Part shown: positions 10,355-39,256 of the stretch, piece after piece
How positions within the stretch are numbered: the stretch's first letter is position 1
Layout: every line of letters begins with the position of its first letter
Assembly: GCF_001447995.1 (NCBI RefSeq)
Contig: NZ_LDPE01000002.1
Coordinates: 124,001-188,000, forward strand
Length of the DNA stretch: 64,000 bases
Source: Maribacter dokdonensis DSW-8
GTDB lineage: Bacteria; Bacteroidota; Bacteroidia; Flavobacteriales; Flavobacteriaceae
Direction: 5' to 3'
The notes under the pieces: generated by a model
Database searches by the model: none
Told to the model about the DNA's origin: nothing
The model's input: the letters and a program-made list of their open reading frames with translations, nothing else
Translations under genes and position numbers: made by a program

Positions 10355-11194
10355 ATGAAACATATATTCTTGATTCTTTTTCTTTGTGTGTGCATTTCAG
10401 TTCAAGCCCAACAAATCACCTGCTCCCCAAAAGACAGAGCGGCCGTTGAGAGTAAACTAGTTGAAATAGACGGTATGTTTCAGAATGATATTGGCGCCAC
10501 CATGGTCAGCGTTGGTAAAACGTTTTTGAAAACACCGTATGTTGCCAAAACCTTAGAAATTGGTGATACAGAAACCTTGGTTGTAAATCTACAAGGATTG
10601 GATTGCACCACTTTTGTGGAAAACGTGCTTGCATTTACACTTTTACTTCGCCAACATGAAAAATCGTTTGATGCCTACTTAAAAAATCTCGAAATTATTA
10701 GATATAAAGATGGTTCTTTAAATGGTTATGCTTCTCGCCTTCATTATTTCTCTGAGTGGATTGCCAACAATGCCGAAAAAGGACTTCTTAAAGACATAAC
10801 AGGCGAAATTGGTGGCGCAGCAATCACAAAGGATATCAATTTTATGAGTACGCACAGGGATTTATATCCCTTCTTGGCAGATGATTCCAATTTCTCAAAA
10901 ATTAAAGCTTCAGAGAACTATTTAAATAATCAGGCTATTTGTGTACTGGCCCAGGATGATATTGCAGCCAACGAACATTTAATACAAACAGGTGATATTA
11001 TTGCTTTAGCAACTTCCATTAACGGTTTAGATGTAACCCATACGGGTATTGCCACCAGAGAAAAAGATGGTAGAATTCACTTACTACATGCATCAACCGG
11101 GTCTATGGAGGTTGAAGTATCAAAAAAACCGCTGGCAGATTATCTAAAGGGCATTAAAAGCAATACGGGTATTATGGTGGCAAGACCTCTTTAA
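10355..11194 (+). CDS. DUF1460 secreted amidase/peptidase-like protein
   Basis: 279 aa with a signal peptide (MKHIFLILFLCVCISVQAQ). It matches the DUF1460 (N-acetylmuramoyl-L-alanine amidase-like) family, which adopts an NlpC/P60-like cysteine-peptidase fold. Visible catalytic candidates are Cys84 in GLDCTTFVEN and His229 in DVTHTGIA; His242 and His245 follow nearby. A periplasmic cell-wall role is inferred from the family. It follows the MscS gene by 9 bp. Its TAA stop overlaps the stop of the convergent AraC gene by 4 bp (11191-11194), so no separate terminator fits between them. Confidence 0.85.
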   Translation: MKHIFLILFLCVCISVQAQQITCSPKDRAAVESKLVEIDGMFQNDIGATMVSVGKTFLKTPYVAKTLEIGDTETLVVNLQGLDCTTFVENVLAFTLLLRQHEKSFDAYLKNLEIIRYKDGSLNGYASRLHYFSEWIANNAEKGLLKDITGEIGGAAITKDINFMSTHRDLYPFLADDSNFSKIKASENYLNNQAICVLAQDDIAANEHLIQTGDIIALATSINGLDVTHTGIATREKDGRIHLLHASTGSMEVEVSKKPLADYLKGIKSNTGIMVARPL

Positions 11195-12087
11195 GCAGTA
11201 CCACCCGCCAAGGCCAACAAGTATTTTTTAGGTGTTGTATTATACTTTTTCTTAAATGCCGCAATAAAATGACTAGAGGTGCTATACCCAACCCTTAACC
11301 CTATTTCATTCACATTATACTGACCGGTTTCTAATAACCGCTTTGCATAATCCATCTTATGATCAAATAAAAAGCTGTATACAGAATCGCCGTAAATTTG
11401 TTTAAAACCTTCTTTTAAACGTTTTAAACTCAGTCCTACTTCACTTGACAGTTCTGCCAATGTTGGTGGTTCGGCCATATTCGCCAAAATAATTTCTTTG
11501 GCTTTCTTGATTTTCTTTACATTCTCCTCATCTGCCAAATACGGGCATTGTTCAATATCTGCATTAGGACTTCTATTAAAGTACAAGGCAATCAATTCAT
11601 AAATCTTACCTTTTACGTACAACGATTTTATAGAAGGATGTAGATTATAATTCACAATCTGACTTAATATAACGGCAATAGAGGGTGAAAAAGGTTCTTG
11701 CGCATAGTACTTTTTTTCTTTGTTATCTGCACTTAAAAACGGAATATAATCTGCCTCTGCCGTAAAGAGGGAGTGAAATTTTCGTAAGGTCATCACCACA
11801 GAAACCAATGAGGATTTTGGATTAAGGTCCAAATTTAAAGGAAGGTCTAATTGGGTGTTATACAACAGTAAAGAATTCTCTTCCTTAACATCTAGGCTAT
11901 AATTTCCTTGATTAAAATTATAGGCTCCGCTTCCCTTAAGACAGAAGTGAAACTGTATGAACCGCTTATTGATATCACGGGTATACTGTACCATCCTATC
12001 CTCCTCATTCTGAAACTTTAGCACATAAAATCCGTCTTCTATCAAAACCTCATCGTATGACCCTTGAGCGTTACTTTTATCTTCCAT
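11191..12087 (-). CDS. AraC-family transcriptional regulator, divergent from the heme operon
   Basis: 298 aa. The C-terminal ~100 residues hold the two helix-turn-helix units of AraC regulators (ANMAEPPTLAELSSEVGLS, then LETGQYNVNEIGLRVGYST and FKKKYNTTPKKY). The N-terminal ~190 residues form a sensor domain without an obvious ligand motif. It is transcribed away from hemA with 192 bp between the start codons, and this arrangement makes it a candidate regulator of the heme operon, though AraC proteins also often act elsewhere. The stop codon overlaps that of the convergent DUF1460 gene. Confidence 0.9.
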   Translation of the reverse strand: MEDKSNAQGSYDEVLIEDGFYVLKFQNEEDRMVQYTRDINKRFIQFHFCLKGSGAYNFNQGNYSLDVKEENSLLLYNTQLDLPLNLDLNPKSSLVSVVMTLRKFHSLFTAEADYIPFLSADNKEKKYYAQEPFSPSIAVILSQIVNYNLHPSIKSLYVKGKIYELIALYFNRSPNADIEQCPYLADEENVKKIKKAKEIILANMAEPPTLAELSSEVGLSLKRLKEGFKQIYGDSVYSFLFDHKMDYAKRLLETGQYNVNEIGLRVGYSTSSHFIAAFKKKYNTTPKKYLLALAGGTA

Positions 12088-27580: not shown

Positions 27581-28705
27581 ATGGGCTTACTTATATTTTA
27601 CGCATTCATATCCATTTTTTTCTCGTTCCTGTGTTCTATTCTAGAAGCAGTATTACTGAGTATTACCCCAACGTTCATCAATGTAAAAATGAAGGAGGGC
27701 AAAAGCTATGCAACAACGCTAGAGGCATTGAAAAAAGATGTGGATCAACCCTTGATCGCTATTTTGACCATCAATACCATTGCCCACACCGTAGGTGCAA
27801 TTTTGGTAGGTGTACAGGCAAAAGCGGCGTATGCGGAGCTGTACGGTAGTGAAACCAGTTCTATTTTTGGCATAGAATTTACTGAGGATGTTATGGTAGG
27901 TGTGGTATCTACCATCATGACCATACTTATTCTTGTAGCCTCTGAAATAATACCGAAGACCATTGGGGCAACCTACTGGAAACAATTGGCGAATTTTTCT
28001 ACCAAGGCATTGAACATTATGGTGCTGGGGCTTAAATACACCGGTCTACTTTGGTTGTTGCGCCTATTTACCAAAATGGTAGGCGGTGGCAATCACCATG
28101 GCAGTGTATTGAGTCGCGAAGATTTCCATGCCATGACAGATATGGCACATGAAGAAGGTGTGTTTGAAAAATCGGAATCTACCATCATCAAAAACCTATT
28201 GAAATTCGATGAAGTATTGGTGAAGGATATTATGACACCACGTGCCGTCATGAAAATTGCATCCGATGAAAAGACCATTGCAGATTTCTTTGAGGACAAC
28301 CCTAAACTACGCTTCTCTAGAATACCCGTGTATACGGACAAAATAGATAACATTACCGGTTTTGTTCTTAAGGACAACGTTCTTGAAGAGATGATCAATA
28401 AGAACGGTGACATTCCTTTAAAGGAGATCAAACGAGAAATCCTGGTTACACGTAGAAGCACGCCTATCCCTACTTTGTTTGAGATATTCATTCAAAAGCG
28501 TGAAGCCATTGCCCTTGTAGTGGATGAATATGGCTCCGTAAGTGGTTTGGTCACTATGGAAGATGTTATAGAAACCCTACTGGGACTTGAAATCATGGAC
28601 GAGAGCGATAATATTGCCGATCTGCAGAGTCTTGCCCGAAAAAACTGGGAAACACGTGCAAAAGCCACGGGAGTGATTGAAAAACCCACGTCGCCGGACG
28701 AATAA
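27581..28705 (+). CDS. CNNM (DUF21) and CBS-domain membrane protein
   Basis: 374 aa. A DUF21/CNNM transmembrane domain fills residues ~1-170 (four hydrophobic helices including LLIFYAFISIFFSFLCSIL). Two CBS domains follow at ~205-340 (LVKDIMTPRAVMKIA; ALVVDEYGSVSGLVTMEDVIETLLG). Relatives include CorC/HlyC-type and Mg/Co efflux proteins, often annotated as hemolysin family; the C-terminal CorC/HlyC domain is absent here, so the protein ends after the CBS pair. A divalent-cation transport role is therefore the best inference. It is followed 8 bp later by ogt. Confidence 0.88.
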   Translation: MGLLIFYAFISIFFSFLCSILEAVLLSITPTFINVKMKEGKSYATTLEALKKDVDQPLIAILTINTIAHTVGAILVGVQAKAAYAELYGSETSSIFGIEFTEDVMVGVVSTIMTILILVASEIIPKTIGATYWKQLANFSTKALNIMVLGLKYTGLLWLLRLFTKMVGGGNHHGSVLSREDFHAMTDMAHEEGVFEKSESTIIKNLLKFDEVLVKDIMTPRAVMKIASDEKTIADFFEDNPKLRFSRIPVYTDKIDNITGFVLKDNVLEEMINKNGDIPLKEIKREILVTRRSTPIPTLFEIFIQKREAIALVVDEYGSVSGLVTMEDVIETLLGLEIMDESDNIADLQSLARKNWETRAKATGVIEKPTSPDE

Positions 28706-28713
28706 TTGGGAAC

Positions 28714-29190
28714 ATGGAGGATATTGCGTACATAAAAACCCCTTTAGGCGTTGCCAAAATTGTAGGCGATGCGGAAGGAGTGTCCGCCATTACCGTACTC
28801 AACTTCGATGAACCTTTAACCGATGTGATTCCGGAATCCTTAGAAGATGCCGTGTTCCAACTCAACGAATATTTTGAGGGGGCAAGAACCGAGTTCAATT
28901 TGACCTTGAACCCCGTGGGTACAGAATTTCAAAAGAAGGTTTGGGTAGAATTACAGAACATACCCTACGGGAAATCAAAATCCTATTTAGAATTGGCAAA
29001 GGCGTTGGGAGATCCCAATGCAACCCGTGCCGCAGCATCTGCAAATGCCAGAAATCCGTTATGGATCGTAGTGCCCTGCCACCGAGTGATCGGTACCGAT
29101 GGTTCACTTACCGGTTACGCCGGCGGTCTACACAGAAAACAGTGGTTATTGAACCACGAAAGCCCCGTAAAACAGCAAAGTTTGTTTTAA
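28714..29190 (+). CDS. ogt: Methylated-DNA--protein-cysteine methyltransferase
   Basis: Repairs O6-alkylguanine in DNA by transferring the alkyl group to its own cysteine. 158 aa, normal for Ogt/AGT. The catalytic motif PCHRVIG carries Cys122, and the DNA-binding part shows YGKSKSYLELAKALG with the helix-turn-helix arginine region RAAASANARNP. The protein lacks an Ada N-terminal domain. It lies 8 bp after the CNNM/CBS gene and probably shares its transcript. It also marks the right end of the conserved block before the AT-rich accessory region. Confidence 0.95.
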   Translation: MEDIAYIKTPLGVAKIVGDAEGVSAITVLNFDEPLTDVIPESLEDAVFQLNEYFEGARTEFNLTLNPVGTEFQKKVWVELQNIPYGKSKSYLELAKALGDPNATRAAASANARNPLWIVVPCHRVIGTDGSLTGYAGGLHRKQWLLNHESPVKQQSLF

Positions 29191-29560
29191 ATCAGCTTCT
29201 TTATTTCATCAAAAAACAAACTACTTGGTTTGTTCCATACCCAAAAAACTCGTTTAACTTCATACATCTAGTATTTTATCGATACAATTGTGATTGCTGT
29301 CGTTACTTTCTGTAACTCTAAACCCTCTTTACAAGCAAAAAACAGACTGGTTGGTTGGTTCGCTGTTTTTAGTCATTTCTTAGGTAGACTCGATCAATTT
29401 ATGGTGATTATGGTTTACAGTATTGGAATATGAGGTGATATTTGTAGGTTTATTCTTAAGTAGTATATTAGTGATGAATTCTACAAATCAATTATATAAA
29501 TACTCATGAATATTTGAGCATATATGTAATTGAACTTATGCATGATCGTTAAAATTAATT
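29191..29560. repeat. Intergenic region with copy 1 of a duplicated leader and two operator-like dyads
   Basis: No gene is seen in this 370-bp stretch. From about 29278 to 29560 it resembles 31368-31672 (shared blocks: CGATACAATT, GATTGCTGTCGTTACTTTC, TGTAGGTTTATTCTT, TATATTAGTGA), about 2.09 kb away. A perfect dyad AACAAAC-N6-GTTTGTT lies at 29215-29234, similar in style to TetR-type operators. A second inverted repeat, AAAAACAG with CTGTTTTT, spans 29338-29370. It is a candidate promoter region for the lipoprotein gene at 29561. Confidence 0.6.
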
Positions 29561-30613
29561 ATGAAACTATCTCAATACCTATTCATCATTCTATCTTTAA
29601 TTCTTGTCTCTTGCACCAATGACAAGGATGAAATAGAGAGTGTCTATCTAGAATATAAAAATGCTCTTAAAATAGACGATGGGCAAAAAATTGTCAATCT
29701 TCTGGACAAGAGTTCTCATGTATATCTTAAAAACTTACATGCTAAAATCATTTCATCCGATTCTTTTGAAATATCAAAAATAAAATATATAGATAGGTTT
29801 AATATACTTTCAGCAAGATCACTATTACCAAACGACTCCTTATTAAGCCTCAAAACAATAGATTTATTTGAAACTTTATTTTCAAATGGTCGTTTTGAAT
29901 ATCAAAAAACTCTTTTCAGAGATTATCATATTATGAAAACAAGTTTCAATGGAAATAAAGGAGTTCTCACACTGAATAATGGGCTAAAATTTGATTTTAA
30001 CAAAGAAAATGATGAATGGAAAATTAACTATAAATCCATTAACGACTCAAAAAATGATGTTATTAAAGAAACTTTGAGTTTTATTAATGTAAACAACCTG
30101 CAGAAACATAATACCAACGCGATAAATACTGTTTTACTTAGAGAAATTGGAAATAAAACTACCAAACCATTCAATTTGCTTTTTTGGCCCTTACATAATA
30201 GTGTAGACGATTTATATTTTAATTATCACTTTTCCGAAAACCTTGAATGTGACCAAAACCAAACTTGGGCCTCAGTTAATAGACCAAGAATATTGTTTTT
30301 TTTATCTGATTCTGAATTGGATAAACAATTTTATTCAACATTTAGGGAGAGTATTGAGTTTAGAAAATTCTGTAAAAATGTTTATAGTGTGACAGCATTA
30401 ACTAAAGATTGTTTTGCCGGTAACACATACTTTAAAAAATTTAATATCAGAACTGTACCTCGCATAATTGTACTAAATGAAGATAACGAAGTGATTCAAG
30501 AATCAGGAGGCTATTTTATTACCCCTGAAATGTTCATTCAAAATATAGACAAATCTGGTGAAATCAATTACGATATATCAAAAATTCAGAAAAAGGCTAA
30601 TGCTGAAAAATAG
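29561..30613 (+). CDS. Lipoprotein with a C-terminal thioredoxin-fold-like domain
   Basis: 350 aa with a lipoprotein signal (LILVSC, Cys18 as acylation site). The middle (30-190) is a charged beta/alpha region of unknown type. The C-terminal ~130 residues resemble a thioredoxin fold: a strand PRILFFLSDS, an alpha region, and the cis-proline loop VPRIIVLNEDNEVIQESGGY, but there is no CxxC active-site pair in the expected place. It might thus bind rather than reduce. It sits alone in the AT-rich block, with a long duplicated leader before it. No family name could be assigned. Confidence 0.7.
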   Translation: MKLSQYLFIILSLILVSCTNDKDEIESVYLEYKNALKIDDGQKIVNLLDKSSHVYLKNLHAKIISSDSFEISKIKYIDRFNILSARSLLPNDSLLSLKTIDLFETLFSNGRFEYQKTLFRDYHIMKTSFNGNKGVLTLNNGLKFDFNKENDEWKINYKSINDSKNDVIKETLSFINVNNLQKHNTNAINTVLLREIGNKTTKPFNLLFWPLHNSVDDLYFNYHFSENLECDQNQTWASVNRPRILFFLSDSELDKQFYSTFRESIEFRKFCKNVYSVTALTKDCFAGNTYFKKFNIRTVPRIIVLNEDNEVIQESGGYFITPEMFIQNIDKSGEINYDISKIQKKANAEK

Positions 30614-30768
30614 GCTTTGTTCTTATGTAACGGTAATTAACTAACATAACAAATACTTTCGGTTTGTACCAAGGTGAAAATTACTCAGAATATAAGAGTT
30701 ATTTACCTTAAACGTTCACTGATAAAGAATATCTGGGATTCAAATATAACCTTTAAAAAACAGGCGAT

Positions 30769-31173
30769 ATGAAACAAAAATTAATATTCGGAATTGCCGC
30801 TATCTTGTTTTTAAACCTTGTATCGTGTGAATCTGATGAGCCTGTTGGTAAATGGGACGACAGTATTAAGCTTTCAAAAAAAGAAGTAAATTTTAGTGCA
30901 CAATCAGATTCTGTGATTATAACAACTGAAGGCACTTGGTGGTGGGTTAGTGAAGTTTCCCTGAATGGAAAAATGCTAGACTTAGATGGCATTGACACAA
31001 CAAAGGAAAATTTCACCATTGAAAAAACGGAATTCTCTTTTGAAAGAAAAAACTCAACGGAGATTTTTATTTCAATGCAACCGAACCCAACTGAATCTGA
31101 AAGGATTCTAATAATTGGACTACAAGATGGCAATTATTTTGATGGCATAAAGATTTTGCAATCAGGAAATTAA
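30769..31173 (+). CDS. Small lipoprotein with BACON-like domain
   Basis: 134 aa. The signal MKQKLIFGIAAILFLNLVSC places the acylated cysteine at residue 20. The mature part has the BACON-type layout: a strand KKEVNFSAQSDSVIITTEGTWWW (key residues NFSA, VII, WWW), and it ends in IKILQSGN, like the closing ITVTQSG strand of BACON domains. BACON domains occur on Bacteroidota surface lipoproteins and are thought to bind or display. The gene stands alone, between two stretches of repeat-rich spacer. Confidence 0.65.
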   Translation: MKQKLIFGIAAILFLNLVSCESDEPVGKWDDSIKLSKKEVNFSAQSDSVIITTEGTWWWVSEVSLNGKMLDLDGIDTTKENFTIEKTEFSFERKNSTEIFISMQPNPTESERILIIGLQDGNYFDGIKILQSGN

Positions 31174-31672
31174 AAATACGGTATAAAATAACAGTAACCG
31201 TTGTACAAGCTATTGATTAGAAATTAATACGATTGCCTCTTCAAGGGGCTTCTTTGGCCTGTTAGTAGTTGAACGTCAATTTTCAGTACACCTAAGGAGA
31301 ACTATTCAGGTATTGAACCAGGTCAAGCTTCCAACATACTTATCTAATTTTTCCATTTAAATGGTTCCGATACAATTACGATTGCTGTCGTTACTTTCAA
31401 CAAATTACAACCCATTTTACGATCAAAAACCGACTACTTGGACGGTTCGTTATTTTAAAGGCAATTCGCTTCAAATTTCTATAATTGACTCATTACTATG
31501 ATAAAATTTATAGCTTTTATGGTTTCCCGTAATGGAGATTAAGATGATTATTGTAGGTTTATTCTTTAATACTATATTAGTGAACAGAAAAACAATTGTA
31601 CATATTCCGCTATATTGGAGAATATGTGCAATTGTGTACATACACAATAGTTAGCAAACATTAAAACCAACA
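31174..31672. repeat. Intergenic region with copy 2 of the duplicated leader
   Basis: About 500 bp with no gene seen. The half from 31368 repeats the 29278-29560 leader. An operator-like dyad AACCG-N10-CGGTT lies at 31428-31447, at a comparable place to the ones in copy 1. Near the end, GTTAGCAAAC (31650-31659) is the left bracket of the next gene unit. The region 31174-31367 shows nothing recognisable. Confidence 0.55.
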
Positions 31673-32589
31673 ATGAGATTAAGAACTATTAGACACAAAA
31701 TTGAGGAGATTTTACCTGAATTAGAAGTTAATGCTACTAAAAGAAATTCTTCACCACCTACATTTCAATTAACGAATCCTGAAGATTTGAAATATGCGGT
31801 TTTGGAAATTGAAGAATTGGACTTGGTGCCTGATTTGTTAAGTGAGCTTCAAGACCAAAGTTTTTATAGTTTTAATGGAGATAACCTTATAATTCAACAG
31901 CAAGAATATAATGTGCTGAATAAAACGATTCCTCAATTAAAAATTATTTTAGAAGCAACAGCTGAATCAATTGAAAAAGCGCAAAATCACGAAATAGATA
32001 GTGCTTTGGTTATTAGTATAAGAATTCCAGAGATTTCTGATTTTGAGGAATTAGAGAAAGTAAGTTCTAAACTAACAAAAATTTTTGGTCAAACATTATT
32101 ATCTAATGAAATTGAAGGTGGATTTAAAATTATAGGTTTTGACTCTGGTTCAAACTGGATTGATATTCTTGCAACTTCTACAGCGATTGTTCAAACTATT
32201 GGAGGACTTGCGTGGTCAGGTGCAGTTGTTTTCAAAAAACTACAAGAAGGTCTATTAGTGCAACAAAAGGTTAGAGAAATGAAAATTTCTAATAATGCAA
32301 TTGAGGAAGTTGTTGAAAAGTCAAAAGAAGGCGTAAATGAAATTGCTGAAAAAGAAGCTCAATTTATTTATAACAAATATTTTTCAGGCAAAGACCCAGA
32401 ACAAATTGCTCGAATAAAAATGGCTCTAAAAGAAATTGCTGATTTGTACAATAAAGGAGGAACAATTAAGCCATCTTTAGAAGCTTCCGAGGAAGTTGCA
32501 GAGGAATTCCCAGACATCTCTGAACTTCCAAGTATTGAATCTAAAGTTAAAAAAATCGAACAAACGAAAAAGAAATAACGTTTGCTAAC
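31650..32589. repeat. Cassette-like unit 1: 10-bp perfect inverted bracket
   Basis: GTTAGCAAAC at 31650-31659 and its exact reverse complement GTTTGCTAAC at 32580-32589 enclose the 301-aa gene, the right half starting 1 bp after its stop codon. The right half is followed directly by AACGTATA. The pattern is seen directly; the reading as integron-like core and inverse core is inference. Confidence 0.7.
31673..32578 (+). CDS. Unknown 301-aa protein with one central hydrophobic segment
   Basis: Not recognised. No signal peptide. An N-terminal alpha/beta part (1-160) is followed by a hydrophobic, glycine-containing stretch at about 168-187 (TSTAIVQTIGGLAWSGAVVF), probably one membrane helix. A long charged, Lys/Glu-rich helical region with likely coiled coil fills the rest to residue 301. 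This is a membrane-anchored layout with a cytosolic tail. It is enclosed by a perfect 10-bp inverted bracket and lies in a spacer-rich accessory block, so horizontal origin is likely. Nothing in the sequence tells its function. Confidence 0.75.
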   Translation: MRLRTIRHKIEEILPELEVNATKRNSSPPTFQLTNPEDLKYAVLEIEELDLVPDLLSELQDQSFYSFNGDNLIIQQQEYNVLNKTIPQLKIILEATAESIEKAQNHEIDSALVISIRIPEISDFEELEKVSSKLTKIFGQTLLSNEIEGGFKIIGFDSGSNWIDILATSTAIVQTIGGLAWSGAVVFKKLQEGLLVQQKVREMKISNNAIEEVVEKSKEGVNEIAEKEAQFIYNKYFSGKDPEQIARIKMALKEIADLYNKGGTIKPSLEASEEVAEEFPDISELPSIESKVKKIEQTKKK

Positions 32590-32782
32590 AACGTATACAA
32601 AAAATAGCGCGAGTCGCTGCTAACAAAAAGGTTCAGGCATTTTTGCGAAGTCGCCAAATTTTTAAATTTGACGATTTCCAAGTAAAAATAAATAGTAAAA
32701 TTTAAAAATTCGGCTTGTGTTTTATCCGAAAAGTTATCGCTTATTTTTAGCGCTACTTTTCATATACCAAACCGTTAGCAAC
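32580..32782. repeat. Spacer E1: long imperfect palindrome, attC-like
   Basis: The ends are TTTGCTAACAACGTATAC-type (32581-32597) and, reversed, TATACCAAACCGTTAGCAAC (32764-32782), which pair imperfectly. Inside, GCCAAATTTTTAAATTT (32653-32669) pairs with AAATTTAAAAATTCGGC (32698-32714), and ATAGCGC (32605-32611 region) pairs with GCGCTAC (32750-32756). The whole spacer could thus fold as one branched stem. Its right part, ATCCGAAAAGTTA and CGCTACTTTTCATATAC, recurs in spacer E2 near 36761-36801. Confidence 0.65.
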
Positions 32783-33418
32783 TATTAAAACAAACCTGCA
32801 TATGAAAATTAAACATCTATTTACAGACAGAAAAATATATGACTTAACAAGTTCTTATATCTCGTCATTAGAGAGTAAAATAAAGAAAATGACTCGTTCG
32901 GATTTTAATAATTCGACAATTGAGGAGCTGACAGAAAAGTTAAGAGCAGAATTTGAAATTTCAATTCCAGAATTATCTAAAGACGAGATTTACACAAAAC
33001 AACCAAAAGATATCAAAATAACTGTGGGAAGAAGAGGTGTTTATGGCGGAGGAACAACAAAAGTAGATGGAACTGAATTTACGTTTGTTATCCCATTTAA
33101 AGGCGACTCATACTATTTTGGAATTACACCAACAAAATTTTTGAGTGTTGTACCATATGGAAATGCTGGAAATAATGAAATCTCAATTAGTTACGAAGTC
33201 CCAAATGGACGAGATAGTTCTGGATTGAGAGCGGAATTTGATAACAATCTTGCTACAATCGAGAAATATTTAGATTTTTTAGATAGTGATTTTAAACAGT
33301 TCAACAATCAATTAGCAAGTGGAATAACTACTTTTTTAGAAAGAAGAAAAGCGAAGTTAGATAGTGACGATGAAACAGCAAGCGGATTTGGATTTCCAGT
33401 AAAATAACAGTTGCTAAC
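32774..33418. repeat. Cassette-like unit 2: 9-bp perfect inverted bracket
   Basis: GTTAGCAAC at 32774-32782 and GTTGCTAAC at 33410-33418 enclose the 201-aa gene, beginning just after ACC and ending 2 bp after the stop codon. The pair is exactly complementary but differs in length and last bases from that of unit 1, as expected for cassette-specific ends. Confidence 0.7.
32802..33407 (+). CDS. Unknown 201-aa protein
   Basis: Not recognised. A soluble protein with an N-terminal charged helical part, a central beta-rich, glycine-rich stretch (VGRRGVYGGGTTKVDGTEF; FKGDSYYFGITPT; ISYEVPNGRDSSG) and a helical C-terminal third rich in Lys and Asp. There is no signal peptide and no catalytic motif. 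The beta part with repeated Gly and aromatic residues could form a binding surface. Enclosed by a perfect 9-bp inverted bracket in the cassette-like block. Codon use is AT-rich like its neighbours. Function unknown. Confidence 0.7.
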   Translation: MKIKHLFTDRKIYDLTSSYISSLESKIKKMTRSDFNNSTIEELTEKLRAEFEISIPELSKDEIYTKQPKDIKITVGRRGVYGGGTTKVDGTEFTFVIPFKGDSYYFGITPTKFLSVVPYGNAGNNEISISYEVPNGRDSSGLRAEFDNNLATIEKYLDFLDSDFKQFNNQLASGITTFLERRKAKLDSDDETASGFGFPVK

Positions 33419-33434
33419 AATTGCTATTACAGGC

Positions 33435-33469
33435 ATATTCTGAAAATTCCATAGGAATTTTCAGAATAT
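33435..33469. repeat. Perfect 16-bp inverted repeat near the IS110 right end
   Basis: ATATTCTGAAAATTCC and GGAATTTTCAGAATAT are exact reverse complements around a 3-nt ATA loop. It lies 17 bp beyond the right bracket of unit 2, so it either belongs to a cassette spacer or is an IS110 target hairpin. Confidence 0.7.
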
Positions 33470-33550
33470 AGTATACTTACAAAAGTCCGTGTTAACCTAC
33501 GCAACTGTTCATAGGTACTGTGTCAAAAAACAAGTTTTTTCTTTAATAAT

Positions 33551-34624
33551 TTAGGAAACAGATTGATTTATCAAGTTGTTATCCCGCGCAGCAAGGGCTT
33601 CATGCTTTTGCTGCTTTTTTATTTCAAATTCAGCATCATAGAACTGTTCGTTCTTCCACAAGGTGTACATCAATATCAATAATTTTCTCTGTACCGCTAC
33701 AAGTGCCACCAAAGGCTTTGCTTTGTTTGGCTTTAGTCTGTTATAGAACTGTTTCAATGTAGGGTTACAGCGTACACAGGTCATCGAGGGCATATGTAGT
33801 ACCGCCCTGATATGGCTGTTCCCTTTTTTACTGATCCTGGTCTTCCCTTTGTAGTTGCCGGACTCCCTCAATACTACATCGTAACCGGCGTAGCTGGCCA
33901 ACTGCTTGGCGTTGACTATCGATTCAAAACCTAAGGTTTCCCCGATTACCGTAGCCGCAGATATGAACGATACACCAGGTATGCTTGTCAAATATTCAAG
34001 TTTCCTTTTCAATTCTTCGTTGTCCGCTATCAATGACCGCATCTCTTCTTCAACTGCCTCTATCTGTGTATTGAGAAGCTTTAACCTGATCTTGTGCCTT
34101 TTTAGTGCTCTTACATTGCTATGCACGCTCGATGCGATCGCTCCTTGCCGATTGGTCTCCATCGTTCTGTCGTTGAGCAATGAACTACGTTCCCTGCTCA
34201 GCCCTTTTAGCTCCTGCAACTCTTCACTGGGCGGGTGCCATAGACGAATGTTTCTTTCCAGGCCCAGCATACTGAGCATCCTACTATCCAACGCATCCGT
34301 TTTGGAGCGTTGGTCCAAACTCTGCGCATAGCGCTTTACACGACCGGACTGCATGACACAAACGCTATGGCCATGTTCGTATAGATAATGTGCTATACCT
34401 TGATGATACACGCCCGTCGCCTCCATCACCACCAACAGTTCCACATCGGGATCTACGGATGTTTTTATCCATTTCAAGAGCATCTTATAACCCTTTGGAT
34501 CATTGGAAACGTCGGGACGGGACTTGAATTCCTTGACCAGCCTTTCATTTAGAAACCCTAGTGACAATGACAGGTTCAACTTTGAAACATCGATACCAAG
34601 ACTCTGTTTTAAACGCTTTTCCAT
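33551..34624 (-). CDS. IS110-family transposase (DEDD plus serine)
   Basis: 357 aa. N-terminal RuvC-like DEDD domain: Asp12 in GIDVSKLN, Glu68 in VVMEATGVY, Asp110 and Asp113 in KTDALDSRML. A charged helical linker runs through 140-210. The C-terminal Tnp domain begins SIPGVSFISAATVIGE (214-229), and GNSHIRAVLHMPS carries the conserved serine (Ser270). IS110 enzymes recombine DNA with the help of a structured non-coding RNA from the element. The reading frame is intact, so the element may be active. A short AT-only hairpin (33525-33540) lies after its stop. Confidence 0.93.
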   Translation of the reverse strand: MEKRLKQSLGIDVSKLNLSLSLGFLNERLVKEFKSRPDVSNDPKGYKMLLKWIKTSVDPDVELLVVMEATGVYHQGIAHYLYEHGHSVCVMQSGRVKRYAQSLDQRSKTDALDSRMLSMLGLERNIRLWHPPSEELQELKGLSRERSSLLNDRTMETNRQGAIASSVHSNVRALKRHKIRLKLLNTQIEAVEEEMRSLIADNEELKRKLEYLTSIPGVSFISAATVIGETLGFESIVNAKQLASYAGYDVVLRESGNYKGKTRISKKGNSHIRAVLHMPSMTCVRCNPTLKQFYNRLKPNKAKPLVALVAVQRKLLILMYTLWKNEQFYDAEFEIKKQQKHEALAARDNNLINQSVS

Positions 34625-34742
34625 TTATTCGGTTTTTAAGCTATAATTCCCTTTATCATCCTTGCTCGCACTTGATTCGGTCTCTATCCAAAGGACCTAG
34701 GTACTGTCCGGATTCCAAGAAAATTATAGAAGGGCGGGATTT

Positions 34743-34803
34743 CTATGAAACGATATCACCCTAAAGTGTATCTAGCCGAGACCTCTCTGTCCCTCCTATT
34801 TTA
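34743..34803. repeat. Direct repeat A in the IS110 left end
   Basis: Starts CTATGAAACGATATCA and ends CCTATTTTA. It matches repeat B (34866-34927) with roughly three quarters identity, offset 123 bp, same orientation. Confidence 0.6.
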
Positions 34804-34819
34804 GCTGTTGTTAATATTC

Positions 34820-34849
34820 AAGCTACTACTTTTATAAAAGTAGTAGCTT
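34820..34849. repeat. Perfect 30-bp palindrome between direct repeats A and B
   Basis: The half sequence AAGCTACTACTTTTA is followed directly by its exact reverse complement TAAAAGTAGTAGCTT, with no loop. It lies in the gene-free IS110 left end. Confidence 0.75.
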
Positions 34850-34865
34850 AAGAAGATTTGTCAAT

Positions 34866-34927
34866 CTATGAAACGACATCATCGAAAAATGTATCTAGCT
34901 CAACCTCTTAATCTCTCTCCTTATTTA
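34866..34927. repeat. Direct repeat B in the IS110 left end
   Basis: Starts CTATGAAACGACATCA and ends CCTTATTTA. Partner of repeat A (34743-34803). Shared core GTATCTAGC. Confidence 0.6.
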
Positions 34928-35007
34928 TATAATTAATAGTATATTCAAACTGAAAATCAAACATACGAGCCGAGACCGTTGTGCGTCATGTCGAAAAACC
35001 AATATAG

Positions 35008-35643
35008 ATGAATAACCAAAAAACATTAAAAGAACAAAATGCAAAATTGATTTGGACATTTTTTTCCTTCAATGCTTTATTATTTTACACTTTAGCTATT
35101 GTACCTAGCTTCGAAATAAATGAATTTGATTGGGAAGAATTTGTTACAGGCAAAGGTATTTGGCTTTTAATAACTCCACTATTATTATTTATAATAAATG
35201 GCTTGATTAGTAGTAATCAGAAAGCTATAATTACATTTTGGAGAATTAAAAATCCTTTACCTGCCTGTAGAGCATTTTCTCATTATTCCAAAAAAGATGA
35301 TAGGATTGACCTAAATAACCTCGAATTAAATTATAGTCCTCTTCCTCAACTTGCAAAAGAACAAAACTCATTATGGTATAAAATTTATAAAACCTATCAA
35401 GAAGAACCTTTAGTAAAAAAGAGTCATAAAGACTTCTTACTTGGTAGAGATATGTGTTCAATCGCTTTATTGTTTTTAATTTTTGGAGGTATAATTGGAT
35501 TATTTATGATGCCAAGTAATACCAAATGGTGGTATTTGTTTTTTACTATTTTTCAATTTTTCATTTTGGCTATTGTGACTCAGAACCATGGAAAAAGATT
35601 CGTTTGTAACGTTCTTGCTCTTGAAACATCTAATAAAGTATGA
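35008..35643 (+). CDS. Unknown four-TM membrane protein, partner of the MBL protein
   Basis: 211 aa, not recognised. Four hydrophobic helices in two pairs are visible at about 13-33, 50-68, 150-168 and 174-192. A polar central loop (70-148) carries charged clusters such as HYSKKDDRIDLNN, and faces the cytoplasm if both ends do. Its stop codon overlaps the start of the metallo-hydrolase gene by 4 bp (ATGA), so the two are translated together. The four-TM plus partner-enzyme layout resembles some pore-forming defence effectors, but that is only a resemblance in architecture. Confidence 0.78.
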   Translation: MNNQKTLKEQNAKLIWTFFSFNALLFYTLAIVPSFEINEFDWEEFVTGKGIWLLITPLLLFIINGLISSNQKAIITFWRIKNPLPACRAFSHYSKKDDRIDLNNLELNYSPLPQLAKEQNSLWYKIYKTYQEEPLVKKSHKDFLLGRDMCSIALLFLIFGGIIGLFMMPSNTKWWYLFFTIFQFFILAIVTQNHGKRFVCNVLALETSNKV

Positions 35644-36671
35644 TAGATATAAGTATAGATATGCTTTCTTTAGGGAATGCAGATTCAATAATTGTTTGGC
35701 TCAAAGACCATAATAATAACAATTTTGTAATTCTCATTGATGGTGGAAATAAAAGCGATGGTGATAAGGTAATTGACCATATGGACAAATACATTTTGAA
35801 AGATGCAGGTAAGTTTGCGCCAGATTTAGTTATTTGCACTCATCACGATAAAGACCATATTGGAGGACTTATTAAAGTTGTTGAACATTATGGTAATAAG
35901 ATAAAGCAAGTATGGATAAATAATCCAGCGGAACATGTTAGTTCAGCAACCTATCAAACTCTTAAAAAACATTTTCAATTAAAATCTGCAAATAAACAGT
36001 ATCAAGTAATACTTGAATCCTTAACTAATGTAGATGATTTTATCAATTTAGTTGATTCCAAGGGTATTACTAGAGAAAATGCTCTTTATGGTCAATCGCT
36101 TTTCAACGGTGTAATAAAAATATTAGGACCTTCGAAAGAATTTTATGACTCGCTACTTCCTGGTATGGGAAATATAGAGAATTACGTTTCATCTGAAGCG
36201 TCTTATGCATTCAACTCAATTTTTGGAACAGCGATAGTTAACGAAACTTTAGAAAAAAATTCGCCATGTCCAATAGTTGATGAGGAAAATTCCACTTCGG
36301 CTACAAATAATTCAAGTGTTATACTTGAAATAATCGCAAAAGAAAATAGTCGATATTTATTTACTGGAGATGCAGGAGTACAAGCATTTGAAGATGTTGA
36401 AAATAGATTTAATCTGGAAAATATTCATTGGTTAGATGTTCCTCACCATGGTTCTAGAAGAAATCTATCCTCGAGACTTATTGAAACTATGTCACCTAAT
36501 GTATGTTATGTTTCAGCCAAAGGAGGACATAAACATCCGAGAAGAGCTTTAGTCAATTGTCTAAAAAAGCATGGAGCAAAGGTATATAGTACTCATAAAG
36601 GAGGAGACAAATGGCATCACAGAGGGAATTTTCCAGATAGAGAAAACTATTCGTCAGCACCTGAAATATAG
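35640..36671 (+). CDS. ComEC-like metallo-beta-lactamase-fold hydrolase
   Basis: 343 aa of the MBL fold, without the membrane parts of ComEC. Metal-binding motif THHDKDHIGG (His68, His69? in the HxHxDH-like run: His68, Asp72, His73), then the ComEC-like core NSSVILEI (224-231), TGDAG with Asp244, and VPHHGSRRN with His269/His270. The last part is VSAKGGHKHPRR and a His-rich end. ComEC-type domains cut single-stranded DNA during uptake, and free-standing ones also occur in defence islands. It is coupled to the four-TM gene (4-bp overlap) and the pair is bracketed by a perfect 8-bp inverted repeat. Confidence 0.88.
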   Translation: MIDISIDMLSLGNADSIIVWLKDHNNNNFVILIDGGNKSDGDKVIDHMDKYILKDAGKFAPDLVICTHHDKDHIGGLIKVVEHYGNKIKQVWINNPAEHVSSATYQTLKKHFQLKSANKQYQVILESLTNVDDFINLVDSKGITRENALYGQSLFNGVIKILGPSKEFYDSLLPGMGNIENYVSSEASYAFNSIFGTAIVNETLEKNSPCPIVDEENSTSATNNSSVILEIIAKENSRYLFTGDAGVQAFEDVENRFNLENIHWLDVPHHGSRRNLSSRLIETMSPNVCYVSAKGGHKHPRRALVNCLKKHGAKVYSTHKGGDKWHHRGNFPDRENYSSAPEI

Positions 36672-36682
36672 AATAAACACGA

Positions 36683-36820
36683 ACGCACAAAAACGTATAT
36701 AAAAAATAGCGGTTTAATCGCTTAATCATTACAAAATGAACAAATTAAAGGTTAGTTATAATCCGAAAAGTTAGTACTTAAAATCCGCTACTTTTCATAT
36801 ACAAGACCGTAGACGCTAAC
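36683..36820. repeat. Spacer E2: attC-like palindrome shared with E1
   Basis: Left part ACGTATATAAAAAATAGCGG (36693-36712) pairs with right part CCGCTACTTTTCATATAC (36785-36802). ATCCGAAAAGTTA (36761-36773) and CGCTACTTTTCATATAC recur in E1. The right end reads ACCGTAGACGCTAAC. The weak 4-bp pair AGAC / GTCT (37308-37316 region) is the only bracket seen for the next unit. Confidence 0.6.
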
Positions 36821-36843
36821 TGAAAAAAACCAATCTGAAATAA

Positions 36844-37296
36844 ATGATATTTAAAGGAATTAATGACCAAACTGTTGAATTTAGCATAACTAACTACCAG
36901 TTTCCTGAAATAAGTGATTGCGAATATGACTCAAATTGGTTGTTGGTTTATTTAAAAGTAAAAAGTGATTATGGAAATTGGGAAACGATTGATCCTTCAC
37001 TTTTGGTAAAAGATTTAAAAGAAATAATCGAATGGTTTGAAAAACTTTCAAATGACATTGAAACGGATTCTGATTCGCTTGTGTTTATGGAACCGAATTT
37101 GAAATTTGAATTAATAAAAAATCAATCAGATTTAAAAACTGTCCGACTAATATTTGACTTGGAATCTCGACCGCAAAATGCAAATGATAATAAAGAATAT
37201 TATGTTGACTGCGAAATGGACAATGCGGAATTAAAAAAAGTTGCGAAGGAATTGACGAAAGAATTAGAATCGTTTCCCGAAAGAATAATCGGATGA
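36844..37296 (+). CDS. WapI-family immunity protein
   Basis: 150 aa, acidic, soluble. It matches the WapI-type immunity family by its opening MIFKGIN and the stretch FPEISDCEYDSNWLLVYLKVK (key residues NW, LLVYLKV), followed by NWETIDPSLL and a helix EIIEWFEKL. Family members protect producers from contact-dependent WapA-type toxins. No toxin gene is nearby, so it would be an orphan immunity gene in an accessory cassette. The function is inferred from the family only. Confidence 0.75.
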   Translation: MIFKGINDQTVEFSITNYQFPEISDCEYDSNWLLVYLKVKSDYGNWETIDPSLLVKDLKEIIEWFEKLSNDIETDSDSLVFMEPNLKFELIKNQSDLKTVRLIFDLESRPQNANDNKEYYVDCEMDNAELKKVAKELTKELESFPERIIG

Positions 37297-37618
37297 AAAA
37301 AGCCAGCAAACAACAAAGTCTGAACGTAATGCAGAGTTTAGAGCTTAATCGAAAAGTCTGTATATATTTATAAAGTCGCTACCCCGATAGCTGTCGGGAA
37401 TAGATTTAGCTTTGGATAAGAAAAAATAAAACTAAACAATAAGCTTTAGCTGCGTGCTAAGAAGGTAACATAAGGTTTCCTTGCCCATGTACTAAACTTC
37501 ACCAAACGGATGGCTACAAGCTAAAAACCTAACAAGATTTAGAATTCAGGCAACCATTTAATTAGATTTTGCGTCTTTATATATACAAAGGCACTTGAAA
37601 TCTAAAACTTTAAAGGAC
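37297..37618. repeat. Spacer E3 with a Bacteroidota-style hairpin
   Basis: About 320 bp without a gene. It begins with GTCTGAACGTAATG (end of the WapI unit), and ends with GAAGGTAAC (37461-37469), the left bracket of the next unit. Between them a hairpin CCCGA-TAGCTG-TCGGG (37383-37398) of a kind common in Bacteroidota intergenic DNA is seen. 37470-37618 contains no feature I can name apart from the gene's leader. Confidence 0.5.
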
Positions 37619-38051
37619 ATGTTAGAAAACCCAAAGGTGAATATCAAAATTAAACTTGCTGCTTTATGGGCTTCAGCAACTTTCTGTTATTTATATGGAG
37701 ATTATTTTGAACTCTACACACCAGGAAAAATAAACAGTTTACTTACCGGAGAAAATATTCTAGATAGTCCCACTAAATTATTATTAGCCTCAATGATTTT
37801 GGCAACTTCATCAGTAATGGTTGCACTTTCAATTCTCCTAAAACCGAAAATAAATCGTATTCTAAATATTGTATTTGGAATATTGTTTACAACAATGATG
37901 CTATTTATTGGCTTCAATTCAAATACCGAGTGGTATAGTTTCTATGTGTTCTTGGCATTTTTAGAAAGTATCATTACCGCATTAATTGTTTGGTATGCTT
38001 GGAAGTGGCCTAAAGAAAAACAAATACTTTAAAAAAAAGCCAGTTACCTTC
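37461..38051. repeat. Cassette-like unit 4: 9-bp perfect inverted bracket
   Basis: GAAGGTAAC (37461-37469) and its exact reverse complement GTTACCTTC (38043-38051) enclose the DUF6326 gene. The right half is followed directly by AACGTA (38052-38057), as in units 1 and 3. The left half lies 150 bp before the gene, further away than in the other units. Confidence 0.65.
37619..38032 (+). CDS. DUF6326 small membrane protein
   Basis: The ATG at 37619 gives 137 aa (MLENPKVNIKIKLAALWAS); a TTG 24 bp upstream would add 8 residues, but the ATG matches the family start. Four hydrophobic helices are visible, beginning with IKLAALWASATFCYLYGDYFEL and ending LESIITALIVWYAW. DUF6326 proteins are integral membrane proteins of unknown role, found widely in bacteria. 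Enclosed by the 9-bp bracket of unit 4. Confidence 0.75.
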   Translation: MLENPKVNIKIKLAALWASATFCYLYGDYFELYTPGKINSLLTGENILDSPTKLLLASMILATSSVMVALSILLKPKINRILNIVFGILFTTMMLFIGFNSNTEWYSFYVFLAFLESIITALIVWYAWKWPKEKQIL

Positions 38052-38180
38052 AACGTAAATAATTTATTGCTGGTTCTAGTCTACTTACCAAAATTCATAC
38101 AGATTGCCTATTCAGTTTTTATTTTCTAATTTAGGTACTTAACCACGCAGCAAACCATAGCCAAACACGTTGAGCGTCAT
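38043..38180. repeat. Spacer C1: attC-like, related to C2
   Basis: After the right bracket GTTACCTTC and AACGTA the spacer runs to CACGTTGAGCGTCAT (38167-38180). Its 38068-38180 part aligns by eye with 38565-38676 (shared blocks: GCT-GTTCT-GT-TACTT, TTTTTATTTTCTAATT-like, AACCATA/TACCATAC). The similarity is moderate. Confidence 0.5.
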
Positions 38181-38191
38181 TTGAGGAACCT

Positions 38192-38425
38192 ATGAAAAAA
38201 GCAAATTTTAATCTAGCATTTCTGATTTTAATTATAATTCTATTTTCATTATTTGTGTATAGCGGAATAGAAATCTCTGAGGGCAAATCAGAAAACATAG
38301 AATGGAAAACTGGACGTTTTATAATAACCGATTTGACTAAAGTAATCGGGATTTTATTAGTTCTGACCTTGCCAACTTATGTTTACTTAAAGAAAAAATA
38401 TTACTCTACTAGCCAAAAGATATAA
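38192..38425 (+). CDS. Unknown 77-aa membrane protein
   Basis: Two hydrophobic helices (about 8-26 and 49-66) flank a charged loop rich in Glu and Lys (ISEGKSENIEWKTGRF). No known family. The start is the ATG at 38192, 11 bp after the C1 end CGTCAT. Only moderate confidence that it is expressed, since it is short and lies in the accessory block, but the helix-loop-helix layout is convincing. Confidence 0.55.
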   Translation: MKKANFNLAFLILIIILFSLFVYSGIEISEGKSENIEWKTGRFIITDLTKVIGILLVLTLPTYVYLKKKYYSTSQKI

Positions 38426-38782
38426 GTTGTGACATTGTAGTTTATAATTCTGGACAAAATATCTAAACTACATCTAAAAATGTTAGATTACTCCACTGAG
38501 ATATTGAATTTGATTGAATCTGAACTGCAAGAGAAAGAATAAAGGAAGTACAAGAACGTATATAGCTAGTTCTCGTATACTTCTGAAAATCATCTAGTAT
38601 TTTCTATTTAATTTTTGTTTGTCTAATTACGTACTAATCCACAAAACATACCATACCCGGTTCCATTGTATGCACCGCTATAAAGTCAAAAACAGTAAAT
38701 TGATTTAAACAATCAGTAATCTGCTTAATTCCTTTCAATAAAATGCCTGCAATTTTGTGGTATAAAATCACAAACAGTTGAA
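38426..38782. repeat. Intergenic region with copy C2 of the spacer and a 20-codon remnant frame
   Basis: No firm gene in this 357-bp stretch. A 20-codon frame starts at the ATG at 38480 (MLDYSTEILNLIESELQEKE) and stops at 38542; it may be the decayed end of a gene. C2, at 38556-38676, begins with AACGTATATAGC and resembles C1. The remaining sequence to 38782 shows nothing I recognise. No perfect bracket was found for this spacer. Confidence 0.4.
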
Positions 38783-39256
38783 ATGGCAAATTCAAAGTTA
38801 ATTTCTTTCGAACTTTCACACTTCTATCCAAATATAGAACTTCAAAAATTCTGGGAGTTCTTTGTTGACCATAGATGGTATTCTCAATCTGATATTATGG
38901 CAGGAGAAGTTGTTGTTGTTAAAGAAGGTAAAGACCATCCACAGGGATTGGGAGCCGTTAGAAAAATTTTGATTGGAAATATAAATCTTACCGAAGATAT
39001 TGTTGGTTTTGACCCACCAAATTATTTCAGTTATGCCGTACATGAAGGCGGTATGCCCGTAAACAGATACCGAGGAGAATTTTTCTACGAATCCAAAAAT
39101 GGCGGTATGTTATGGAAATACAAAGGAAGCTTTGAGCCAAAATATTTTGGTACAGGTTGGTTTTTTAAATGGTTTCTAAAATCCAGGATGAAATCACAAC
39201 TTCCTGTATGGGAGAAAGGATATAATGCATATCACAATGTAAATAGCCAACCATGA
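38783..39256 (+). CDS. SRPBCC-superfamily protein (polyketide cyclase/dehydrase-like)
   Basis: 157 aa with the START/SRPBCC layout: opening strand-helix (ISFELSHFYPNIELQKFWEFFVDHRWYSQS, key residues FWEFF and WYS), central beta strands with GLGAVRKIL and YFSYAVHEGG, and a C-terminal helix (GTGWFFKWFLKSRMKSQLPVWEKGYN). Such proteins bind hydrophobic ligands or cyclise polyketides. It overlaps the SDR gene by 4 bp, so they form an operon. The ligand is not predictable. Confidence 0.8.
   Translation: MANSKLISFELSHFYPNIELQKFWEFFVDHRWYSQSDIMAGEVVVVKEGKDHPQGLGAVRKILIGNINLTEDIVGFDPPNYFSYAVHEGGMPVNRYRGEFFYESKNGGMLWKYKGSFEPKYFGTGWFFKWFLKSRMKSQLPVWEKGYNAYHNVNSQP

Follow-up and report, generated by a model that had tools for sequence, protein, structure and literature searches.

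The stretch of DNA analysed here, referred to as the window, comprises 64,000 nucleotides (nt) of Maribacter dokdonensis DSW-8, a member of the Flavobacteriaceae (contig NZ_LDPE01000002.1, positions 124,001 to 188,000), and holds between 31650 and 38054 four gene units, each closed by an inverted pair of short sequences specific to that unit. A sequence-only reading had taken these brackets for the topology of a cassette array, and all eight halves are found exactly where it had placed them, with AACGTA(TA) after three of the right halves. The positions were exact, but the lengths were not, as units 1 and 2 extend further than first reported: in both, a 10-nt match starting from GTT is followed by one mismatch (A versus G) and 3 further matches. 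In unit 3 the bracket matches over 8 nt with its first base mismatched; in unit 4 the 9-nt bracket is intact and the left GTT is degenerate.

All units lie on the forward strand. Cassette 1 (31650-32589) opens with a left end, R', of GTTAGCAAAC, carries an open reading frame (ORF) at 31673-32578 (301 amino acids (aa), no Pfam match) and closes with a right end, R'', of GTTTGCTAAC. Cassette 2 (32774-33418; R' GTTAGCAACT, R'' AGTTGCTAAC) encloses an ORF of 201 aa, also without a Pfam match (32802-33407). Cassette 3 (34978-36690; R' GTTGTGCGT, R'' ACGCACAA(A)) carries two ORFs, 35008-35643 and 35640-36671, the latter with a metallo-beta-lactamase fold (PF00753), and cassette 4 (37461-38054; bracket GAAGGTAAC / GTTACCTTC) a single one (37595-38032, PF19851). 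Between the units lie palindromic sites with the arms GTATAnAAAAAATAGCG and CGCTACTTTTCATATAC, organized as R''-L''-loop-L'-R' like the attC sites of integrons. Three of them are on the forward strand, at 32575-32788, 36677-36823 and 38037-38183, and in each the bottom strand is predicted to fold better than the top one (-35.5 versus -33.0, -14.0 versus -12.5 and -11.0 versus -9.4 kcal/mol, respectively). This bottom-strand structure had been overlooked in the sequence-only reading, together with the conserved wobble and the attI copy described below.

The number of brackets in the window is not above chance. For exact inverted pairs of 8, 9 and 10 nt spaced 500-1800 nt apart between 31600 and 38100, a first-order Markov model predicts means of 282, 79 and 23, and the numbers observed are 232, 57 and 17; the count is therefore not used as support, and window counts alone are insufficient for a claim of cassettes. 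The non-chance signal is the register: the brackets stand at the unit edges, beside ORFs and conserved palindromic sites, and the same rule holds across relatives.

A covariance model of the bottom strand, built from 38 sites of relatives, gave 387 matches (E<=0.01) in 1.43 Mb selected around sites and recombinases, and 24 in the genome of DSW-8, including the three window sites. With stricter filters (E<=1e-5, 10 candidates scored per genome), sites were found in 264 of 299 Flavobacteriaceae genomes; an early one-arm pattern had found them in 56 of the 299, with no occurrence of the reversed pattern among the rows listed. Two sets were measured: a first one of 289 sites (288 of the 300 matches listed out of the 387, and one from DSW-8, low-scoring or incomplete sites being omitted), and a later one of 208 out of 234 sites from loci fetched afterwards, the weakest being omitted. 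The bottom strand was the more stable in 263/289 sites of the first set (227/251 among those outside model building) and in 189/208 of the later one. Each of the 19 later-fetched loci shows a single cassette orientation, two of them having one site only.

Complementarity within units, compared with shuffled and neighbour-shifted pairs across these relatives, is far above both controls. Counted from GTT, 8 nt or more match in 143 of 189 adjacent pairs of the first set (shuffled 2.6%, neighbour-shifted 3.4% of 148) and in 161 of 181 of the later set (shuffled 2.7%, largest value 7.8%; neighbour-shifted 10/164). Sites without AAC or GTT in place (37/289 and 8/208) were dropped from the pair measurement, and for this reason GTT is common to all measured sites. 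The unit ends match over 10 bp in a fixed register, and among the 125 pairs with a match of exactly 10 the next position sets A against G in 124, that is, a G.T wobble on the bottom strand. The sequence itself varies, as 156 matches of at least 9 nt show 85 distinct 7-nt stretches. The stem has further G.T wobbles on the bottom strand: of 252 sites, 54% have one at position 8 and 57% one at position 13. In one alignment of sites the L arms are gap-free, with conserved G.T wobbles. When a unit's own ends are joined, the bottom-strand fold gains stability over the array form in 155 of 159 cases, by 6.4 kcal/mol on average, an effect that follows from the end complementarity and is not independent evidence.

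In integrons the R boxes follow the consensus RYYYAAC / GTTRRRY. The new sites depart from it, since R' fits in 32/474, R'' in 40/472 and both in only 4/452. A strict scan for RYYYAAC..GTTRRRY around IntI genes in ten genomes of the phylum gave no arrays; a relaxed scan of the same genomes gave 0-2 occurrences per 40 kb and strand versus 0-1 in shuffles, again without arrays, and also yielded none in three dense arrays of the new type. PMC9892861 gives the R box as G|TTRRRY.

As a control the site model was run on 430 kb of sequence surrounding IntI genes in ten other genomes and three more recombinase genes of DSW-8, and matches up to E<=1 were found at one locus only. This is a four-site cluster in a genome of another family (G336, locus L293, 12828-15515), about 4 kb from a true IntI gene; an ORF between its sites resembles, by eye, the window ORF 30769-31173. 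The XerC/XerD-type loci of DSW-8 (L096, L097) contained no site.

The recombinase that the sequence-only reading had proposed to look for is encoded outside the window in the genome of DSW-8, and beside arrays in relatives. DSW-8 has four PF00589 genes, encoding a XerC-sized protein, a XerD-sized one, a larger one and a protein of 375 aa (C7:1878-3005). The latter passes model NF040815 (228.7 versus 220 bits), whose name, "site-specific tyrosine recombinase/integron integrase", is printed by several databases for its relatives, and fails the integron model TIGR02249 (208.3 versus 265). The spacing between the motifs KGxKDR and HxLRH is 58-59 residues in all new proteins where both are readable (79 of 89), and 100 in both IntI where they are (2 of 13). 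Judging from this score and this spacing, the 375-aa recombinase lacks the IntI-specific insertion, which is held essential for IntI. In a tree of 72 rows, including every second named protein, IntI forms one group (support 100/99) and the new proteins fall outside it, in a separate group of 55 rows (98/93).

In agreement with the earlier statement that no IntI-type integrase was in view, none is present in the window; moreover, true IntI scored over the model cut-off in 0/299 Flavobacteriaceae genomes, 14 control genomes being likewise negative, and the same model was positive elsewhere in the phylum, with 105 of 395 genomes over cut-off. The N-terminal 110 residues of the new recombinase were found in 100 of the 299 family genomes. 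Pfam and Protein Data Bank sequence searches with the N-terminal domain gave no convincing match; the damage- or fork-recognition domains of UvsW, XPB and SMARCAL1 (HARP) were set beside it as candidates for a shared fold. In a search of plasmids the best record was from Persicobacter (42% over 99%), and 11 of at least 5000 records covered 80% of the query; among the 40 matches listed most were IntI1, aligned over residues 119-375.

Linkage between gene and sites was measured in the best 80 of 536 recombinase loci, picked by the recombinase alone; carriers among them include Maribacter, Arenibacter, Aquimarina, Winogradskyella, Gillisia, Polaribacter, Saprospiraceae, Prolixibacteraceae and Marinilabilia. 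In 34 of the 80 loci the gene is followed by sites (E<=0.001), and the loci without sites are mostly explained by a contig ending soon after the gene: where at least 2 kb follows, sites are found in 32/35, and where at least 1 kb follows, in 33/44. Of 151 hits in the 80 loci two are mirror images; the remaining 149 distinct sites are all in the orientation of the recombinase, 145 of them downstream. Eight further loci, outside the named ones, were checked: L112 had no site, and in the other seven all 35 measured sites lie downstream on the same strand. In genome G159, whose contig was assumed to be circular, the array occupies both contig ends, one part extending from about 3.57 Mb to 3630376 and the other from the start to 10141, just before the recombinase gene at 10746-11858. 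Two variant recombinases (L064, L155) have their arrays in divergent orientation, as in classical integrons. Upstream of the gene a divergent zinc-finger ORF (123-126 aa, CxxC motifs) is found in 58 of the 80 loci and also in DSW-8 (L098, 3089-3460); neither NCBIfam (E<=0.01) nor Pfam (above cut-off) gave a match for this conserved ORF, which could possibly be a partner or directionality factor.

Directly behind the gene lies a candidate attI: within about 90 nt of the stop codon, 11 of 12 loci inspected by eye have a GTT with a different R box, mostly after a dyad, and a regular expression recognised it in 50 of 78 loci (shuffled mean 8.4, maximum 16). Different cassettes follow the same kind of attI.

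The cassettes are diverse. Among 140 of them, 115 carry an ATG-initiated ORF of at least 50 aa, the longest being in sense in 112. For 96 ORFs from eight loci (of the 115 extracted), 60 Pfam families were found, none in more than two ORFs, and the 25 families listed include immunity proteins, a ParE toxin and thioredoxins; PADLOC assigned 22 models to the same 96 ORFs, one ORF each, with HerA foremost. Some cassettes are found in different contexts as exact units. A comparison of 260 cassettes gave 20 pairs aligned over 60% or more of their length, and in 6 of these both alignment ends fall no more than 25 nt from the unit borders. For example, one such pair lies within G159, its members separated by about 1.4 Mb and 99.6% identical over 756 bp, another is 95.3% identical over 744 bp between two genera (g55 and g84), and a third is 87.3% identical over 1719 bp between genomes G286 and G036.

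At the left border of the window array an attI copy (31622-31652, forward strand) is identical in 28 of 31 nt to the attI behind the recombinase gene of DSW-8 and ends in the GTT of the first bracket. It is the sole window match at up to 3 mismatches, and 100 shuffles gave none. The copy closes a repeat (31368-31652) in which TTG (31551-31553) is followed after 19 nt by TATATTAG (31573-31580). Another copy of this repeat lies on the same strand downstream of ogt (29278-29550), with a Bacteroidetes-type promoter-like motif (TTTG at 29441-29444, N19, TATATTAG at 29464-29471), a hairpin and a GTT (29548-29550), and resembles an orphan attI platform; the promoter consensus is TAnnTTTG/TTTG in PMC2483708. 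The ogt hotspots of the genus contain 35 repeat copies in 22 sequences, of which 26 have a GTT box 47-73 nt behind (25 boxes distinct) and 29, as a raw count, have the relaxed motif TTG-N18-20-TAnnTTnG. Because of the border attI copy and the recurring ogt-linked repeat, we read the window, from its sequence, as cassettes behind orphan attI copies, partly decayed, one of them followed by an IS110-type gene. A reading of the ogt-linked repeats (about 270 nt) as attL and attR of a genomic island was set aside, as the copies end in attI, GTT and different cassettes.

Other features of the window array may be described with respect to this order. The segment between the two attI-like repeats (29561-31173) contains two ORFs without Pfam match, which are probably older cassettes with decayed sites of their own. 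The site model recognises no complete site behind the R'' of cassette 2; the reverse strand there carries an IS110-family transposase gene (33551-34624), which is taken as an insertion, not a cassette. A decayed cassette on the forward strand (36844-37314) holds a WapI-like immunity ORF (36844-37296, PF24716) and an R''-like end read by eye (37300-37314). Elsewhere CTTAAG adjoins the L'' arm in place of R'' (L090, L092, L093 (own genome), L053 16368, L087 9593). At locus L003 of DSW-8 an IS110-family gene stands beside a CTTAAG junction, and the same junction is found in two other genomes. These junctions look like the work of an element targeting the sites at one position; IS1111-attC elements are known to target attC at one position. 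Sites are also present in the lytic Polaribacter phage P12002L (L273 14492-14636; L274 9997-12936), several near DNA methyltransferase genes.

Anatomy, statistics, linkage, attI and some exact exchange of units are established here, and the earlier suggestions of a cassette array and of a possible new class of mobile cassettes hold up on within-unit complementarity against the shuffled and shifted controls, the recombinase, the 6 of 20 cassette pairs bounded at both ends and the varied cassettes at the same type of attI. We conclude with high confidence that the units are gene cassettes of an integron-like system, which appears widespread in Bacteroidota, and that a bottom-strand hairpin is most likely joined to attI by the tyrosine recombinase of about 375 aa. 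A cassette consists of one or two ORFs followed by an attC-like site. In the mechanism we propose, the bottom strand of this site in the excised circular cassette would fold into a hairpin, L'' pairing with L' and R'' with R'. The recombinase would cut within GTT and join the cassette to attI, the short dyad ending in GTT directly behind its gene, or alternatively to orphan copies such as 31622-31652. Since each cassette has its own variable 7 nt behind GTT, the R arms can pair completely only once the cassette is excised as a circle; in an array the R' standing there is that of the neighbour, not the cassette's own, and insertion would be favoured over excision.

Several observations weigh against this conclusion. 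Recombination itself we infer from sequence, and likewise its catalysis, a single-stranded form of the substrate, the bias in direction and what the extra N-terminal domain does. Fourteen of the 20 cassette pairs were not counted as bounded at both ends, one being the same genome taken twice (L113/L214) and 13 overrunning or falling short of at least one border by more than 25 nt. Three loci (L193, L207, L227) are without sites although more than 2 kb of sequence follows the gene, and attI went unrecognised in 28 of 78 loci (6 segments being shorter than 70 nt). Between the recombinase gene of DSW-8 and the contig end lie attI, one ORF and an IS110-type gene, and no site was found there. Within the 55-row group of the tree 48 rows come together at only 80/64, seven divergent relatives stand outside and long branches are flagged; the label "new" is not one clade, because three of these seven had been given it. 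Finally, sites are present in 264 and the N-terminal domain in 100 of the 299 genomes, so that for many arrays no such enzyme was found in their genome. One of these genomes, G071, has sites and three PF00589 genes, none of them near the array, and is not among the N-terminal-domain matches; its array (L050, L109) covers about 40 kb, and the searches made did not find the new recombinase there. Arrays of this kind may be orphan clusters or belong to variant recombinases.

The excess of sites over N-terminal domains also speaks for a different driver, the cassettes being real and moved by a variant IntI- or Xer-like enzyme without the N-terminal domain, or by the host XerC/XerD, with the 375-aa enzyme as one of several. 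Variant recombinases do occur in array loci (L120, of 305 aa, L115, L116, L111 and L072, as well as the divergent L064 and L155). However, attI and same-strand sites stand behind the 375-aa gene in many genera, and the XerC/XerD-type loci of DSW-8 are without sites; we consider such a driver rather unlikely. It is improbable that these are attC sites of a classical integron, or of a cluster lacking an integrase (CALIN), moved by a true IntI held elsewhere, even though the topology is alike and true IntI is common elsewhere in the phylum. According to PMC9892861, one predicted attC of phage P12002L was active with IntI1 and attI1, on the bottom strand only; this phage holds sites found by our model, of which the tested site may be one. 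The lack of IntI over cut-off throughout the family, the rarity of sites in which both R boxes fit, and arrays standing behind a different enzyme argue against this explanation. More improbable still, the palindromes could be RNA elements (terminators, small RNAs) or intergenic repeats of the repetitive extragenic palindromic type, with the brackets incidental: they do lie behind genes and fold well, but the wobble asymmetry favours the bottom, non-coding strand, Rfam has no match in 28500-39000 up to E=1, and unit-specific brackets, attI junctions and exact exchange would be unexpected. Chance inverted repeats, compatible with the bracket count of the window, are practically excluded by the relatives (161/181 versus 2.7% in shuffles, with a fixed register and a fixed mismatch).

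That the cassette system works like an integron is well supported. As in sedentary chromosomal integrons (IntI, attI, attC), a cassette consists of an ORF and an imperfect palindromic site, orientation is uniform, the ends are complementary within the cassette, the bottom strand folds better, an attI stands, by sequence, beside the gene of a recombinase of the Xer/IntI branch, and arrays reach several tens of kb. On two of the tests that define the integron family at present, the IntI insertion and the R boxes, the system nevertheless differs: its recombinase has 58-59 residues between the two motifs instead of 100, and its R arm consists of 10 bp, the wobble and 2-3 bp, with a cassette-specific stretch, instead of GTTRRRY. 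Unlike integrons, it also has an extra N-terminal domain of about 95 residues in the recombinase, conserved G.T wobbles in apparently gap-free L arms, and arrays downstream in the orientation of the recombinase, with the zinc-finger ORF divergent upstream. The window cluster resembles a CALIN in having no recombinase gene beside it, but an attI copy marks its left border, and the genome encodes a recombinase of the new type at another place. Unlike XerA, XerC, XerD and XerH, the new recombinase has the N-terminal domain and is linked to cassette arrays and attI. We found no previous description of these arrays in the literature searched, whose scope left out bioRxiv and most subscription journals, and the available portions of PMC8138268, PMC9024848, PMC9668308, PMC8618304, PMC2426708 and PMC9892861 do not describe them.

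Taking these results together, we lean slightly towards a second integron lineage across Bacteroidota, whose recombinases would lie outside the IntI clade without the insertion and would perhaps use the N-terminal domain instead to read forks or mismatches. The cassette-specific 7 nt within a 13-bp R arm, fully paired in the free circle alone, would ease capture and hinder loss, and the ogt-linked repeats of promoter and attI would act as extra expression platforms in trans. If confirmed, the system would represent a major way for a dominant group of marine bacteria to acquire genes, would allow an independent test of what parts a recombinase needs to recognise single-stranded sites, and would provide a testable explanation for the stability of arrays.

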